Of a stretch of 64,000 nucleotides of DNA, positions 50,161 through 55,599 are shown piece after piece. The stretch covers positions 69,501 to 133,500 of the forward strand of contig NZ_CP091799.1 in assembly GCF_022024235.1 (NCBI RefSeq), read 5' to 3'. The notes beneath the pieces were generated by a model. That model was given only the letters and a program-made list of their open reading frames with translations. It was not told the DNA's origin and did not search any database. The number at the start of each line of letters is the position of its first letter. Positions within the stretch are counted from its first letter, which is position 1. The position numbers were made by a program, and so were the translations under genes. The stretch comes from Segatella baroniae B14. Its GTDB lineage: Bacteria; Bacteroidota; Bacteroidia; Bacteroidales; Bacteroidaceae.

Positions 50161-50164
50161 CAGT

Positions 50165-50290
50165 GTAATAAGTAAAGAAAGTATCGGAATTTTCCGAATA
50201 AAGATATTTTTTTGATTTGTTTTAGTAGATTAGTTTTTAAGTAGTTTGTTTTTGAAAATCGGTTGTCGTGACGACATCCGATTTTTTTTT
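50165..50290 (+). ncRNA. Candidate small RNA of about 125 bases
   Basis: A full consensus promoter ends at 50160 and a strong terminator ends at 50290. The sequence between has no ATG on the plus strand, so it cannot encode an ATG-started protein. It contains a hairpin TCGGAA-TT-TTCCGA near its 5' part, a U-rich single-stranded middle and the terminator stem AAATCGGTTGTCG / CGACATCCGATTT. It lies between groESL and a small membrane-protein gene that has its own -7 box. The transcript ends are estimated, and its targets are unknown. It could also be a leader that attenuates the next gene. Confidence 0.6.
50255..50290 (+). terminator. Terminator of the candidate ncRNA
   Basis: AAATCGGTTGTCG (50256-50268) pairs with CGACATCCGATTT (50272-50284), with one T-T mismatch and a 3-base loop, followed by nine or more T. 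The T run leads straight into the next promoter's -7 box. Confidence 0.9.
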
Positions 50291-50291
50291 G

Positions 50292-50306: not shown

Positions 50307-50534
50307 ATGAAACAGAAAATTGATATCGACTGGAAAAAGTTTATCGGCTTTGCTTTTGTCATTGGTTTGATTTACTTTATTACGAGTTTCGTTCTTCATC
50401 TGGTTCACCCCTTGTTGATGACTGTAGGTATTCTGTTATTATTGTTGGTTGGCGATCATTATGCACAGGTTGCTGATCAGAAATTGGCAGAAAAACGTAG
50501 AAAAAAAGACGAAGAAAAAAACAGGGAGGAATAA
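50307..50534 (+). CDS. Small membrane protein of unknown function
   Basis: The 75-residue protein begins MKQKIDIDWKK, has hydrophobic segments FIGFAFVIGLIYFITSFVL and PLLMTVGILLLLLVGDH that can form two membrane helices, and ends in a charged tail (LAEKRRKKDEEKNREE). The start at 50307 is set by the -7 box; earlier in-frame codons lie inside the terminator. It ends nine bases before the kinase-RapZ fusion gene and is probably co-transcribed with it. No function can be assigned from sequence. Confidence 0.7.
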   Translation: MKQKIDIDWKKFIGFAFVIGLIYFITSFVLHLVHPLLMTVGILLLLLVGDHYAQVADQKLAEKRRKKDEEKNREE

Positions 50535-50543
50535 GAAGGAAAG

Positions 50544-52091
50544 ATGGAAAAACTTGTTGAATTATTTGAGCAATGGAGTGGTAAGAAACCTGCTCGTGTA
50601 GAACAACTAGCTGGTCAGGGTAGTAATCGCCAGTATTATCGTATGTTTGATGATGATGGCCACTCGGTTATCGGTGTTGTGGGCACGAGTCGTGATGAAG
50701 ATCATGCATTTGTTTATCTTACCCGTCATTTTACCAAGCGCCAACTGCCTGTACCAAAGATTCTCGCAGTTAGTGCGGATGAACTTCGTTATATCCAGAC
50801 AGATTTAGGTGGAGTATCCCTTTTCGATGCCATTCGTGGTGGTAGAGAAGCTGGAGGCAGATATAATCAGAAAGAATATGAACTTCTATTGAAGACCATC
50901 CGTGAATTACCCAATATTCAGATTCGTGGTGCACGAGAATTAGACTGGAGTAATTGTTATCCACAACCAGAATTTGATGAGGCTGGAGTACTTTTTGACT
51001 TGAATTATTTCAAGTATTGTTTCTTGAAACCTACAGATTTAGATTTTCATGAATTAAAGCTTGAAGCAAACTTCCGTCTGTTTGCCAAAGACTTGACATC
51101 AGAGAAGATGGAATGTTTCTTGTATCGTGATTTCCAGGCACGCAATATAATGTTGGATTCAGAAGGAAATCCGTACTTTATTGACTATCAAGGAGGGCGA
51201 AAAGGACCATTTTATTATGATCTGGCTTCATTCTTATGGCAGGCTTCCGCACATTATTCTTTTAAGATGCGTCGCCAGCTGATTATGGAATATTACAATA
51301 GTCTGAAGAATTATATCGAAGTGCCAAGTGAGCGCCACTTCGTACGTCGACTCTCTCTATTTGTGCTCTTCCGTACCCTTCAAGTTTTAGGAGCATATGG
51401 TTTCAGAGGCTATTTTGAGCGTAAAAAACATTTTATCGATTCTATTCCGCCTGCTATTCAGAATCTTCGTGATTTAATAGCACTGGGTGATAAAGTGTTC
51501 CCTTATCCATATATGATGGATATGTTGCGTCGATTAACAGAACTACCTCAGTTTGCACGAATAGAACAGCCTGCGTTGACTCGTGCAGATGGTTATAAGG
51601 TGGCAGATAACAATATTTATCAAGCTCATCCACAAGATGGACCAGCAACTTTTTCAAAATACGAAGGTAAAGGTCCATTGGTCGTGCACGTCTATAGCTT
51701 CTCATTCCACAAAGGTATACCAGAAGACCCATCAGGAAATGGTGGTGGCTATGTCTTCGACTGTAGAAGTACGCATAACCCCGGTCGTTACGAACCTTAT
51801 AAAAAGCTTACAGGTCTAGACGAACCTGTTATCCGATTCCTTGAAGATGATGGTGAGATTCTGACATTCCTGAAGAGCGTATATCAATTGGCCGATCATC
51901 ATGTGGAGCGCTATATACAACGAGGCTTTACCAGTTTGATGTTCTGTTTTGGTTGTACCGGAGGACAACATCGAAGTGTATATAGCTGTCAACATCTAGC
52001 CGAACATATCCACGAGAAGTTTGGTATCGAAGTAGAGATTACCCATCGTGAACAGCATATTCACCAGATATTACCAGCCCGCGAACAATAA
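50544..52091 (+). CDS. AmgK-like sugar kinase fused to a RapZ C-terminal domain
   Basis: The 515-residue cytoplasmic protein has two parts. Residues about 10-340 form an aminoglycoside-phosphotransferase-fold kinase close to AmgK: GQGSNRQYYR, the catalytic loop YRDFQARNIML (Asp196, Asn201) and the metal-binding YFIDYQGGRKGP (Asp214). AmgK phosphorylates MurNAc and GlcNAc at the anomeric carbon in cell-wall recycling. Residues about 378-512 match the RapZ C-terminal domain (VYSFSFHKGIPEDP, YVFDCRSTHNPGRY, KLTGLDEPVIRFLE, FGCTGGQHRSVYSCQHLAEHI), which in E. coli RapZ binds glucosamine-6-phosphate and RNA partners. The Walker-A half of RapZ is absent. A MurU-like gene follows after 65 bases. Function is inferred from domains and context. 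Confidence 0.85.
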   Translation: MEKLVELFEQWSGKKPARVEQLAGQGSNRQYYRMFDDDGHSVIGVVGTSRDEDHAFVYLTRHFTKRQLPVPKILAVSADELRYIQTDLGGVSLFDAIRGGREAGGRYNQKEYELLLKTIRELPNIQIRGARELDWSNCYPQPEFDEAGVLFDLNYFKYCFLKPTDLDFHELKLEANFRLFAKDLTSEKMECFLYRDFQARNIMLDSEGNPYFIDYQGGRKGPFYYDLASFLWQASAHYSFKMRRQLIMEYYNSLKNYIEVPSERHFVRRLSLFVLFRTLQVLGAYGFRGYFERKKHFIDSIPPAIQNLRDLIALGDKVFPYPYMMDMLRRLTELPQFARIEQPALTRADGYKVADNNIYQAHPQDGPATFSKYEGKGPLVVHVYSFSFHKGIPEDPSGNGGGYVFDCRSTHNPGRYEPYKKLTGLDEPVIRFLEDDGEILTFLKSVYQLADHHVERYIQRGFTSLMFCFGCTGGQHRSVYSCQHLAEHIHEKFGIEVEITHREQHIHQILPAREQ

Positions 52092-52098
52092 TCGCGGG
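52078..52098 (+). terminator. Hairpin at the stop codon of the kinase-RapZ gene
   Basis: CCCGCGA and TCGCGGG form a 7-bp stem whose loop contains the TAA stop codon. Only a weak T-rich tail follows, so it is probably a partial terminator. Confidence 0.5.
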
Positions 52099-52104
52099 TT
52101 ATCT

Positions 52105-52136
52105 TTTGGTAGTCTCATGAAAAATGATTAAATTTG
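52105..52136 (+). promoter_or_regulatory. Promoter for murU-guaA (TTTG-N20-TAAATTTG)
   Basis: TTTG at 52105-52108 and TAAATTTG at 52129-52136 are spaced by 20 bases, a good fit to the Bacteroidetes consensus. It gives a leader of about 15-20 bases before the MurU-like gene. Confidence 0.6.
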
Positions 52137-52156
52137 CACGCATTAAAAAGTAGAAG

Positions 52157-53008
52157 ATGATGCAAGCAATGATTTTTGCGGCTGGGTTAGGTACCCGATT
52201 GAAACCTCTTACGGATCATATGCCAAAGGCATTGGTAAGGGTAGGAGGAGAACCGCTTTTGCGTCGTGTCATTTTCAAACTTAAAGCAGCTGGCGTTACC
52301 CGTATTATTATTAATGTTCATCATTTTTCAGATATGATTGTTGATTATCTGAAAGAAAATGATAATTTCGGCATGGATATCCGTATCAGTGATGAGACGG
52401 CCGAATTATTAGAGACGGGAGGTGGCATACTTCATGCTCGCAAGCTGTTTAGTCCTTTAACACCTATCCTTATTCATAATGTAGACATATTGAGTAATGT
52501 CGACTTGAAGAAGTTCTATCACTTAAATCCTCGCATCATGTGTCAGGAGTGTGGTGTTCCTCATATTCAGGCAGATGCTACATTATTAATGAGTTGGCGT
52601 AAAACCAAACGCTATTTGGTCTTCAATAATGACATGCTTCTCGTCGGATGGGTGAATATAGAAACCGGAGAAGTGAAGAGTCCGTTTGAAGAAGTCAAAA
52701 CGGAGATAGCAGAAAACGTTGAATCCCTCAAAGCTCAGCTATCAGCGATCCATACTTCTACACCAACAAACTCGCCGCTTTCTACACTTCACTATCAACT
52801 GTATGCTTTCAGTGGCATACATACTTTTTCTCCTCGCCTTTTCTCGTTGATGGAAAGCTATCCGGAGAAATTCCCAATTATGGACTTCTATCTGCAAAAC
52901 TGTGACAAGGCTGTCATCAGAGGTTATGTAAAAAATGACCTCCGATTGATGGACGTGGGCAAACAGGATACTTTGAAGCAGGCAGAAGACTTTCTGAATA
53001 CGTTATAA
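52157..53008 (+). CDS. MurU-like sugar-1-phosphate nucleotidyltransferase
   Basis: The 283-residue protein starts with the nucleotidyltransferase signature MIFAAGLGTRLKPLTDHMPKALVRVGG. Other family parts are IIINVHHFSDMIVDYL, ISDETAELLETGGGILHA and PILIHNVDILSNVD. Together with the upstream AmgK-like kinase it resembles the AmgK-MurU route, which turns MurNAc into UDP-MurNAc and bypasses de novo synthesis. Compared with other MurU proteins there is an insert around residues 180-215 (Ser/Thr-rich). It is followed by guaA after 25 bases. A second ATG lies one codon downstream. Confidence 0.88.
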   Translation: MMQAMIFAAGLGTRLKPLTDHMPKALVRVGGEPLLRRVIFKLKAAGVTRIIINVHHFSDMIVDYLKENDNFGMDIRISDETAELLETGGGILHARKLFSPLTPILIHNVDILSNVDLKKFYHLNPRIMCQECGVPHIQADATLLMSWRKTKRYLVFNNDMLLVGWVNIETGEVKSPFEEVKTEIAENVESLKAQLSAIHTSTPTNSPLSTLHYQLYAFSGIHTFSPRLFSLMESYPEKFPIMDFYLQNCDKAVIRGYVKNDLRLMDVGKQDTLKQAEDFLNTL

Positions 53009-54698: not shown

Positions 54699-54718
54699 TA
54701 TCCCCTAGAAATACCCCC

Positions 54719-55170
54719 GACATATGCAGAGTTGTTCACCCTCCCTTGCAGGGAGGGCGGGGAGGGTCTCCCCCCGACATATGCAGAGTTGTTCACCCTC
54801 CCTTGCAGGGAGGGCGGGGAGGGTCTCCCCCCGACATATGCAGAGTTGTTCACCCTCCCTTGCAGGGAGGGCGGGGAGGGTCTCCCCCCGACATATGCAG
54901 AGTTGTTCACCCTCCCTTGCAGGGAGGGCGGGGAGGGTCTCCCCCCGACATATGCAGAGTTGTTCACCCTCCCTTGCAGGGAGGGCGGGGAGGGTCTCCC
55001 CCCGACATATGCAGAGTTGTTCACCCTCCCTTGCAGGGAGGGCGGGGAGGGTCTCCCCCCGACATATGCAGAGTTGTTCACCCTCCCTTGCAGGGAGGGC
55101 GGGGAGGGTCTCCCCCCGACATACGCAGAGTTGTTCCCCCTCCCTTGCAGGGAGGGCGGGGAGGGTCTCC
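54719..55170. repeat. Eight 57-bp tandem repeats carrying G-quadruplex motifs
   Basis: Copies begin at 54719, 54776, 54833, 54890, 54947, 55004, 55061 and 55118. The first seven appear identical and the last has two substitutions and is shortened to end at the mscL stop codon. Each unit contains CCCTCCC-TTGCA-GGGAGGG, which can form a hairpin, and GGGAGGGCGGGGAGGG, a four-tract G-quadruplex motif with one-base loops on the plus strand. The unit length is a multiple of three with no stop codons, so long false reading frames cross it in several frames. It lies between the convergent guaA and mscL genes. A related fragment (CCCTCCCTGTAAGGGAGGG) lies at 54602-54620. Confidence 0.95.
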
Positions 55171-55599
55171 CTATTTATTTTTCAGTAAATCTCTGATTTC
55201 AGTGAGTAGTAACTCTTCCTTAGTAGGCTCTGGCGGAGTAGGAGGAGTTGCAGCCTCTTCTTCCTTCTTCTTGCGAGTTAGTTTAGTTATGCCCTTAACG
55301 AGAAGGAAAACACATAAGGCAATAATAACAAAGTCAATAAGAGTCTGGATAAAATTGCCATAGTTGATAGTAGCAGGAGCTAACTTTTCCAATCCTGGAA
55401 TTTCAACTTGAGGCAATGTAACCTTCAGATCGCTAAAGTTTACACCACCGATAAGCCATCCGATAGGAGGCATAATGATATCATCTACAATACTCGTAAC
55501 AATCTTGCCGAAAGCACCACCGATGATAACACCGACAGCCATATCGACGGCATTACCTTTTACGGCAAAGTCTTTAAACTCTTGAATTAATTTTCCCAT
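55171..55599 (-). CDS. mscL: Large-conductance mechanosensitive channel
   Basis: The 142-residue inner-membrane channel has the MscL N-terminus ([41 protein letters not shown]), the second helix [17 protein letters not shown] and a C-terminal helix ([18 protein letters not shown]). It opens under membrane tension to release solutes on osmotic downshock. The stop codon lies directly at the edge of the repeat array, which is downstream of this gene. A weak -7 box on the minus strand lies at 55735-55742. Confidence 0.97.

Follow-up and report, generated by a model that had tools for sequence, protein, structure and literature searches.

A sugar kinase joined to the C-terminal domain of RapZ in a predicted amino-sugar salvage module of Bacteroidota

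What does the C-terminal domain of RapZ do when it is carried by a sugar kinase? The question is raised by a gene of Segatella baroniae B14 within a window of 64,000 nucleotides (assembly GCF_022024235.1, contig NZ_CP091799.1, positions 69,501 to 133,500 of the forward strand; "the window" denotes this whole stretch, and coordinates of the S. baroniae features are counted from its first letter). The gene joins a kinase resembling AmgK to the RapZ C-terminal domain (RapZ-C), and the following gene encodes a protein resembling MurU. In Pseudomonas, the N-acetylmuramic acid 6-phosphate (MurNAc-6P) formed by AnmK is dephosphorylated by MupP, after which AmgK adds a phosphate at C1 and MurU produces UDP-MurNAc (PMC5371407). 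Work on RapZ has treated it as a sensor that binds RNA and responds to a cell-envelope precursor, and the authors of that work left open both the role of an essential loop cysteine and the hydrolysis of glucosamine-6-phosphate (GlcN6P). Finding the same domain in a salvage pathway that bears no sign of RNA binding would provide a simple system for the chemistry of the domain. Here, we describe a widespread Bacteroidota module of kinase, RapZ-C, and MurU-like protein, and we tentatively propose that RapZ-C acts within it as a phosphatase. Our findings at the level of genes are firm, but the proposed mechanism is not. The features that define the module in the window are as follows.

50544..52091, plus strand: fusion protein of 515 amino acids, comprising an AmgK-like kinase, a linker, and the RapZ C-terminal domain
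50574..51470, plus strand: AmgK-like (APH-fold) kinase domain, residues 11-309
51681..52055, plus strand: RapZ C-terminal domain, residues 380-504
51954..51974, plus strand: codons of the phosphate loop, C471-T-G-G-Q-H-R477 (equivalent to C247-R253 in E. coli RapZ), which has the CX5R pattern and lies between a strand and a helix
52157..53008, plus strand: MurU-like sugar-1-phosphate nucleotidyltransferase of 283 amino acids

Both halves of the fusion protein are recognized by sequence profiles. The Pfam APH family matched residues 19-234 (E = 1.4e-14), and the RapZ C-terminal domain family PF22740 matched residues 380-504 (E = 2.5e-31) with 108.8 bits against a curated cutoff of 27. The NCBIfam models for the complete proteins remained below their equivalog cutoffs, with 61.7 bits against 550 for AmgK (NF045759, E = 6.3e-17) and 89.9 bits against 244 for RapZ (PRK05416, E = 1.9e-25). 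The latter profile aligned only at positions 156-277, its C-terminal part, and the protein is not a full-length RapZ with an N-terminal Walker domain. The best NCBIfam match of the 283-residue neighbor is MurU (NF045761, E = 7.1e-37), at 127.4 bits against a cutoff of 250; a second MurU model scored 104 bits and the next family 70 bits, and a relative in the PDB is 8hhd, whose chain is named MurU (E = 4.4e-17). We write "AmgK-like" and "MurU-like" because these equivalog cutoffs were not reached. Within the kinase domain, R195-D196, N201, and D214 are invariant in two alignments (A1, 27 rows; A3, 36 rows), and we take D196 and N201 to be the catalytic aspartate and asparagine and D214 to be the metal-binding aspartate.

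Predicted structures support the same assignment. AlphaFold2 modeled RapZ-C alone with a predicted local distance difference test (pLDDT) score of 93.7 and the whole fusion with a score of 90.8, leaving a disordered linker at residues 351-375. The RapZ-C model superimposed on the crystal structure of the E. coli RapZ C-terminal domain (RapZ-CTD; 5o5s) with a Z score of 19.4 and a root mean square deviation (rmsd) of 1.6 Å, aligning 123 of 123 residues at 34% identity. The next match outside RapZ was phosphofructokinase (Z score of 6.0, rmsd of 3.7, 95 residues aligned), likewise named as the closest relative in the published account of the RapZ-CTD structure (PMC5737377). The kinase domain matched the APH-type kinase 3csv (Z score of 28.1, rmsd of 2.8, 305 residues aligned) and therefore has the APH fold, with choline kinases and N-acetylhexosamine 1-kinases among its lower matches (the latter with a Z score of about 19 and an rmsd of about 4). 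The locus had been described earlier by a model reading the DNA (the original prediction), which is right about the coordinates, the order of the domains, and the gene pair. Its claim that a salvage-type kinase and the RapZ-C fold share one protein is backed by Pfam, NCBIfam, and the match to 5o5s, the structural comparison that it had itself proposed.

We assessed the distribution of the module in a phylum sample of 296 Bacteroidota genomes (G-numbers denote genomes and L-numbers denote loci). RapZ-C is present in 36 genomes, all of which also encode the kinase. Fusion-size frames occur in 27 of the 36, each confirmed to contain both domains, and nine genomes carry a stand-alone RapZ-C of 134-155 residues, with the gene order kinase, rapZC, murU in seven of these cases. 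The genes for kinase and RapZ-C are unlinked in G180 and G271 and are nevertheless co-present, and the stretches read there contained no MurU-like gene. Kinase-domain matches, collected at an E limit of 1e-6, separated into strong ones (E = 1.7e-34 or better) and weak ones (E = 3.7e-19 or worse). The strong matches fall in 37 genomes, namely, the 36 with RapZ-C and G009, the sole genome with a close kinase that has no RapZ-C and in which the kinase lies beside murU. The weak matches come from 62 genomes of a single family, f17, none of which possesses RapZ-C. The resulting co-occurrence of kinase and RapZ-C is strong (Fisher test, 1.4e-45, not corrected for phylogeny). In a second sample of 161 genomes from the family of S. 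baroniae, some of them incomplete metagenome-assembled genomes (MAGs), RapZ-C is found in 133, including 10 of 10 from its own genus. The fusion is not a chance event or an assembly accident, since it forms a single open reading frame (ORF) in 27 of the 296 genomes and RapZ-C recurs in 133 of the 161. Conservation across Bacteroidetes genomes, which the original prediction had named as a check, is thus evident both as the fusion and as the seven kinase-rapZC-murU arrangements.

A third sample consisted of the best 80 of at least 584 stretches of named genomes whose encoded proteins are related to the fusion. Among these 80, hosts include Prevotella, Leyella, Hoylesella, Alloprevotella, Phocaeicola, Bacteroides, Parabacteroides, and Muribaculum, as well as a Tannerella sp. 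MAG, MAGs of Saprospirales, Chitinophagales, and Ignavibacteriales, and others. The MurU-like gene is the next gene in 53 of the 80 loci, is fused in 2, and lies elsewhere in the locus in 6; 17 loci have none, and 2 are cut short. The link between the fusion and MurU is therefore strong and not universal, and the conserved pairing with a MurU-like partner anticipated from the window is borne out. Kinase, RapZ-C, and nucleotidyltransferase are encoded in one frame in four loci, L054 (760 amino acids), L108 (751 amino acids), L155, and L156. A long ORF in L157 was considered as a further fusion and not counted: its first third has no Pfam match and reads as out-of-frame, and it contains no nucleotidyltransferase part.

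Residue conservation within RapZ-C is concentrated in its phosphate loop. Relative to E. coli RapZ, whose numbering is used here, C247, T248, G249, G250, H252, R253, and S254 are invariant in all 36 Bacteroidota domains, as are D182, R184, N188, P189, and H276. The loop residues C, T, G, G, H, R, and S were again invariant in alignment A2, which comprises the window and 65 of 77 named-locus domains, 12 having been omitted by hand for size before conservation was viewed. Nine canonical RapZ proteins, drawn from Pseudomonadota, Actinomycetota, Bacillota, and Fusobacteriota, carry an identical loop apart from T248, which is serine in Fusobacterium. Position 190 is histidine or tyrosine in these nine proteins and glycine in 36 of 36 Bacteroidota domains, where the next residue is arginine or lysine in 35. 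The set of residues forming the GlcN6P/sulfate pocket (H190, T248, G249, H252, and R253) is accordingly incomplete, with four of five retained together with C247. The original prediction turned on intact RapZ ligand-binding residues, which holds for C247, T248, G249, G250, H252, and R253 and fails for H190. The glycine at position 190 in every domain indicates that the ligand may differ from GlcN6P.

A CX5R(S/T) loop set between a strand and a helix is the signature of cysteine-dependent phosphatases. In the fusion protein the loop runs from C471 to R477, followed by S478, and the model places a strand at 464-471 and a helix from 477. The C-x5-R pattern is by itself short and proves nothing. 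The RapZ pocket has been likened to the loop found in cysteine-dependent tyrosine phosphatases, along with the suggestion that RapZ may hydrolyze GlcN6P (PMC7199280), and phosphatase activity has been reported for B. subtilis YvcJ (PMC7525490). According to Islam et al. (PMC9841335), the substitutions H190A, G249W, R253A, C247A, and C247S each abolish RapZ activity, H190 is required for the function of E. coli RapZ, and a crystal of RapZ-CTD with GlcN6P contains the density of a likely transformed product.

Family membership predicts that the fusion and its neighbor act together as a module for amino-sugar salvage, whose product is a UDP-sugar and most likely UDP-MurNAc. A free amino sugar would be phosphorylated at C1 by the kinase domain, and the resulting sugar-1-phosphate would be converted to the UDP-sugar by the MurU-like enzyme. 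For RapZ-C, we lean, with less than even confidence, toward a putative cysteine phosphatase that makes the substrate of the kinase from a sugar-6-phosphate, as MupP does. RapZ-C would bind an amino-sugar 6-phosphate in its CX5R loop, hydrolyze it through C471, and hand the free sugar to the kinase, so that the phosphate would in effect be moved from C6 to C1. This proposal is supported by the coupling to a kinase, the occurrence of RapZ-C also as a separate gene or as part of triple fusions, the invariant loop, and a gap in the distribution of MurQ.

That gap is what inclines us toward a phosphatase. MurQ scores in the phylum sample are bimodal, and matches with an E of 3.0e-51 or better were counted as MurQ, the others having an E of 5.5e-12 or worse; the curated cutoff of 302 bits passes 204 genomes. 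AnmK is present in 207 of the 296 genomes. MurQ accompanies it in all 182 AnmK genomes that have no RapZ-C, whereas 12 of the 25 AnmK genomes with RapZ-C have no MurQ (Fisher test, 5.6e-13, not corrected for phylogeny; G216, one of the 25, has only a weak AnmK match). AnmK without MurQ thus occurs only alongside RapZ-C, in 12 of 12 genomes from six families. Conversely, neither AnmK nor a BadF-type sugar kinase (counted at an E of 1e-15 or better) was found in any of the 63 genomes that have the kinase and no RapZ-C, 62 of which belong to the one family f17 and the other being G009. Among the 11 RapZ-C genomes without AnmK, 9 encode a BadF-type kinase, which by coordinates adjoins an AmpG-like permease gene in 8 and lies one gene apart from it in G156. 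A weaker BadF kinase in G230 adjoins MurQ, NamZ, and an AmpG-like gene. NCBIfam and Pfam identify the genes at L130:6707-11764 (G031) as a BadF/NagK-like kinase, an AmpG-like permease, and then a GH3 hydrolase joined to a beta-lactamase-type domain. We note this row as apparent muropeptide-recycling genes, with rows similar by size and position in L128, L131, L134, and L140. NCBIfam NF045760 was considered as a model for MupP and discarded, as it describes YtpR.

Several observations weigh against a phosphatase. The loop cysteine is kept equally in canonical RapZ, a regulator, and no cysteine-phosphatase fold appeared among the structural matches listed for RapZ-C, a listing that excludes nothing. 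The genome of S. baroniae B14, the 11th of the RapZ-C genomes without AnmK, yielded no AnmK, true MurQ, NamZ, or MurK-like kinase, and its only BadF-like match is a type II pantothenate kinase. It does have an AmpG-like permease, whose gene lies beside that for a DUF4922 plus SpoIID protein, with a glycosyltransferase nearby (L136:9137-15348). Within the family, AnmK occurs in only 5 of the 161 genomes, and 129 of the 133 RapZ-C genomes do not have it. Nor is AnmK enriched with RapZ-C, either across the phylum (25 of 36 genomes against 207 of 296) or within the family (4 of 133). BadF-type kinases are found in 104 of the 296 genomes, 86 of them without RapZ-C, and the presence of a 6-kinase alone is therefore not tied to RapZ-C. 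Finally, with kinase and RapZ-C always found together, the pattern of MurQ applies to the module as a whole and cannot single out RapZ-C.

Such observations lend weight to a reading in which RapZ-C is an allosteric sensor that binds GlcN6P or another amino-sugar phosphate and tunes the kinase down (or up) according to the de novo precursor supply, close to what was originally predicted and, in our view, a serious possibility that still falls short of even odds. RapZ-CTD binds GlcN6P (PMC7073468), the fusion places sensor and kinase in a single chain, and RapZ-C is kept both in the 129 AnmK-negative genomes of the family and in S. baroniae itself, where no source of MurNAc-6P is visible and a sensor is therefore as sensible as a phosphatase. 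However, H190, needed in E. coli RapZ, is glycine throughout, RapZ-C is free-standing in nine of the 36 genomes and unlinked to the kinase in two, and a GlcN6P sensor does not predict the pattern of AnmK and MurQ. We place the putative phosphatase narrowly ahead of the sensor. It is improbable that RapZ-C is a scaffold that dimerizes the kinase or docks MurU for channeling with neither catalysis nor sensing. RapZ-CTD does dimerize alone (PMC7073468), and the four triple fusions suggest that proximity is useful, but the phosphate loop and other polar residues are conserved more strictly than a scaffold needs, and unlinked stand-alone rapZC genes in two genomes are likewise at odds with it. A separate matter, compatible with any of these roles, is whether the module salvages another N-acetylhexosamine (N-acetylglucosamine, N-acetylgalactosamine, or N-acetylmannosamine) instead of or besides MurNAc. 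The unmet AmgK and MurU cutoffs and the N-acetylhexosamine 1-kinases among the structural relatives leave room for it, yet we consider it unlikely: MurU models are the best matches of the neighbor ahead of any other family, and T. forsythia AmgK and MurU act on MurNAc probes in E. coli (PMC13041923). Moreover, a distantly related kinase-murU pair in four f17 genomes is followed directly by NamZ, a MurNAc-releasing family, by coordinates and with one case confirmed by Pfam. These loci, L123:3591-6710 and L124-L126, each show the AmgK-like kinase and MurU-like gene adjoining NamZ, an exo-muramidase family.

The original prediction had also raised the possibility that the kinase takes part in RNA control, pointing to a small RNA upstream. 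The remaining features around the fusion gene are as follows.

50164..50291, plus strand: candidate small RNA that carries a terminator hairpin of its own
50307..50534, plus strand: short ORF of 75 amino acids directly upstream of the fusion gene, matching no family in Pfam or NCBIfam
52076..52100, plus strand: terminator-like hairpin with a poor T tail across the stop codon of the fusion gene

Given this hairpin, co-transcription of the fusion and murU remains a supposition. The candidate RNA looks real and is conserved, but it is no steady partner of the kinase. Its predicted fold has an energy of -30.1 kcal/mol against a shuffle mean of -18.1 kcal/mol (z = -4.2), and matches of 80-93% identity occur in 8 of the 80 loci (L040, L042, L043, L046, L047, L048, L051, and L052). 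The core is invariant in the nine aligned sequences, and 3 of 22 predicted pairs are changed on both sides. Rfam at the gathering threshold returned only one tRNA over the window, and a permissive scan of the candidate gave sub-threshold matches only, including the Bacteroidetes FopS family at 17.3 bits against 56. The view of the RNA as a companion of groEL holds only in part: groEL precedes it in six of nine cases (the window, L040, L042, L043, L047, and L048), L046 and L052 have no groEL match within the 2.5 and 4.2 kb before the RNA, the sequence of L051 is too short to judge, and the groEL loci L038, L045, and L050 have no RNA match. In favor of a kinase that joins RNA control through RapZ-C and the upstream RNA, R184 is kept in 36 of 36 domains, position 170 is lysine or arginine in 33 of 36, and in the window, L040, L042, and L043 the candidate is located a short distance upstream of the fusion gene. 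Yet the basic C-terminal tail (K270, K281, R282, and K283) is not kept as a set, K251 is glutamine in 35 of 36 domains, and the RNA is matched in only those 8 loci, five of which (L046, L047, L048, L051, and L052) have it at a distance of 3.7 to 7.7 kb from the fusion gene. B. subtilis YvcJ also has no such tail and is not known to bind RNA (PMC7525490). With H190 always replaced by glycine and the RNA-binding tail lost, RNA control is not supported; we set it aside as a principal explanation and regard it as very improbable. Of the original proposal, the existence of an upstream small RNA stands, its consistent proximity to the fusion does not, and the suggested role of the kinase in RNA control finds no backing.

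RapZ-C also occurs on plasmids. A Bacteroides finegoldii plasmid (L149, NZ_OY725912.1, 1990-4179) encodes a fusion-sized protein with this RapZ-C C terminus, followed by a nucleotidyltransferase gene, and the public record annotates the protein as "RNase adapter RapZ". Judged by the size and C-terminal sequence of the protein, this label is misleading, whichever role RapZ-C proves to have. Outside Bacteroidota, a Streptomyces tsukubensis plasmid encodes RapZ-C fused to a NUDIX domain (L153:2013-2894) and other Streptomyces plasmids encode RapZ-C proteins of about 130 amino acids (L150-L152), further enzyme-like contexts of the domain. Two short adjoining genes on a Desulfosarcina ovata plasmid (L154, 2567-3171) are annotated as RNase adapter RapZ and are possibly one gene in pieces. 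Elsewhere in the window, at about 54700-55200, an array of near-identical repeats shows up on both strands as overlapping, repetitive ORFs, between what we take to be guaA and a reverse-strand mscL-like gene. A search of a defense-system library gave no match.

The idea that RapZ is a phosphatase is already in print (PMC7199280); our contribution is to place it in a pathway. A literature search that was thin on subscription papers found no paper naming both RapZ and AmgK, and the combination of RapZ with "Bacteroid" returned only papers on other topics, judged by title. For AmgK and MurU in Bacteroidetes, it led to a single paper, which concerns Tannerella. If RapZ-C is a phosphatase, it would account for a step in the recycling of cell walls by Bacteroidota and for where RapZ came from. 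In a bolder version, which we regard as doubtful, RapZ-C arose as a cysteine-dependent amino-sugar-6-phosphate phosphatase and is still a working enzyme of cell-wall-sugar salvage in Bacteroidota, where its fusion to the 1-kinase, and sometimes to the uridylyltransferase as well, would serve 6-to-1 phosphate relocation; E. coli RapZ would represent its later reuse as an RNA-binding sensor. Such an origin would explain why serine is no substitute for the RapZ cysteine and why the ligand is changed in the GlcN6P crystal.

The module resembles several known systems, each in part. Like AmgK-MurU of Pseudomonas, it pairs an APH-fold anomeric kinase with a MurU-like uridylyltransferase, and a free sugar is the expected kinase substrate; unlike that pair, it scores far below the AmgK and MurU equivalog cutoffs, carries RapZ-C, and has no AnmK or MupP gene at the locus (no MupP-specific search was made). 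The C-terminal domain shares its fold and phosphate loop with E. coli RapZ (YvcJ in B. subtilis), but the APH-fold kinase takes the place of the N-terminal Walker P-loop domain, H190 is glycine, the basic RNA-binding tail is lost, and an extra glycine-rich loop (GNGGG in most) precedes the FDCR motif. The step proposed for RapZ-C, from sugar-6-phosphate to free sugar ahead of AmgK, is that of the MurNAc-6-phosphate phosphatase MupP (PMC5371407), although MupP is a HAD-type phosphatase and no common sequence or fold is claimed. With cysteine-dependent phosphatases, RapZ-C has in common the succession of strand, C-x5-R loop, and helix, a likeness noted for RapZ itself (PMC7199280), but it matched no such fold among those listed, and the loop may be convergent.

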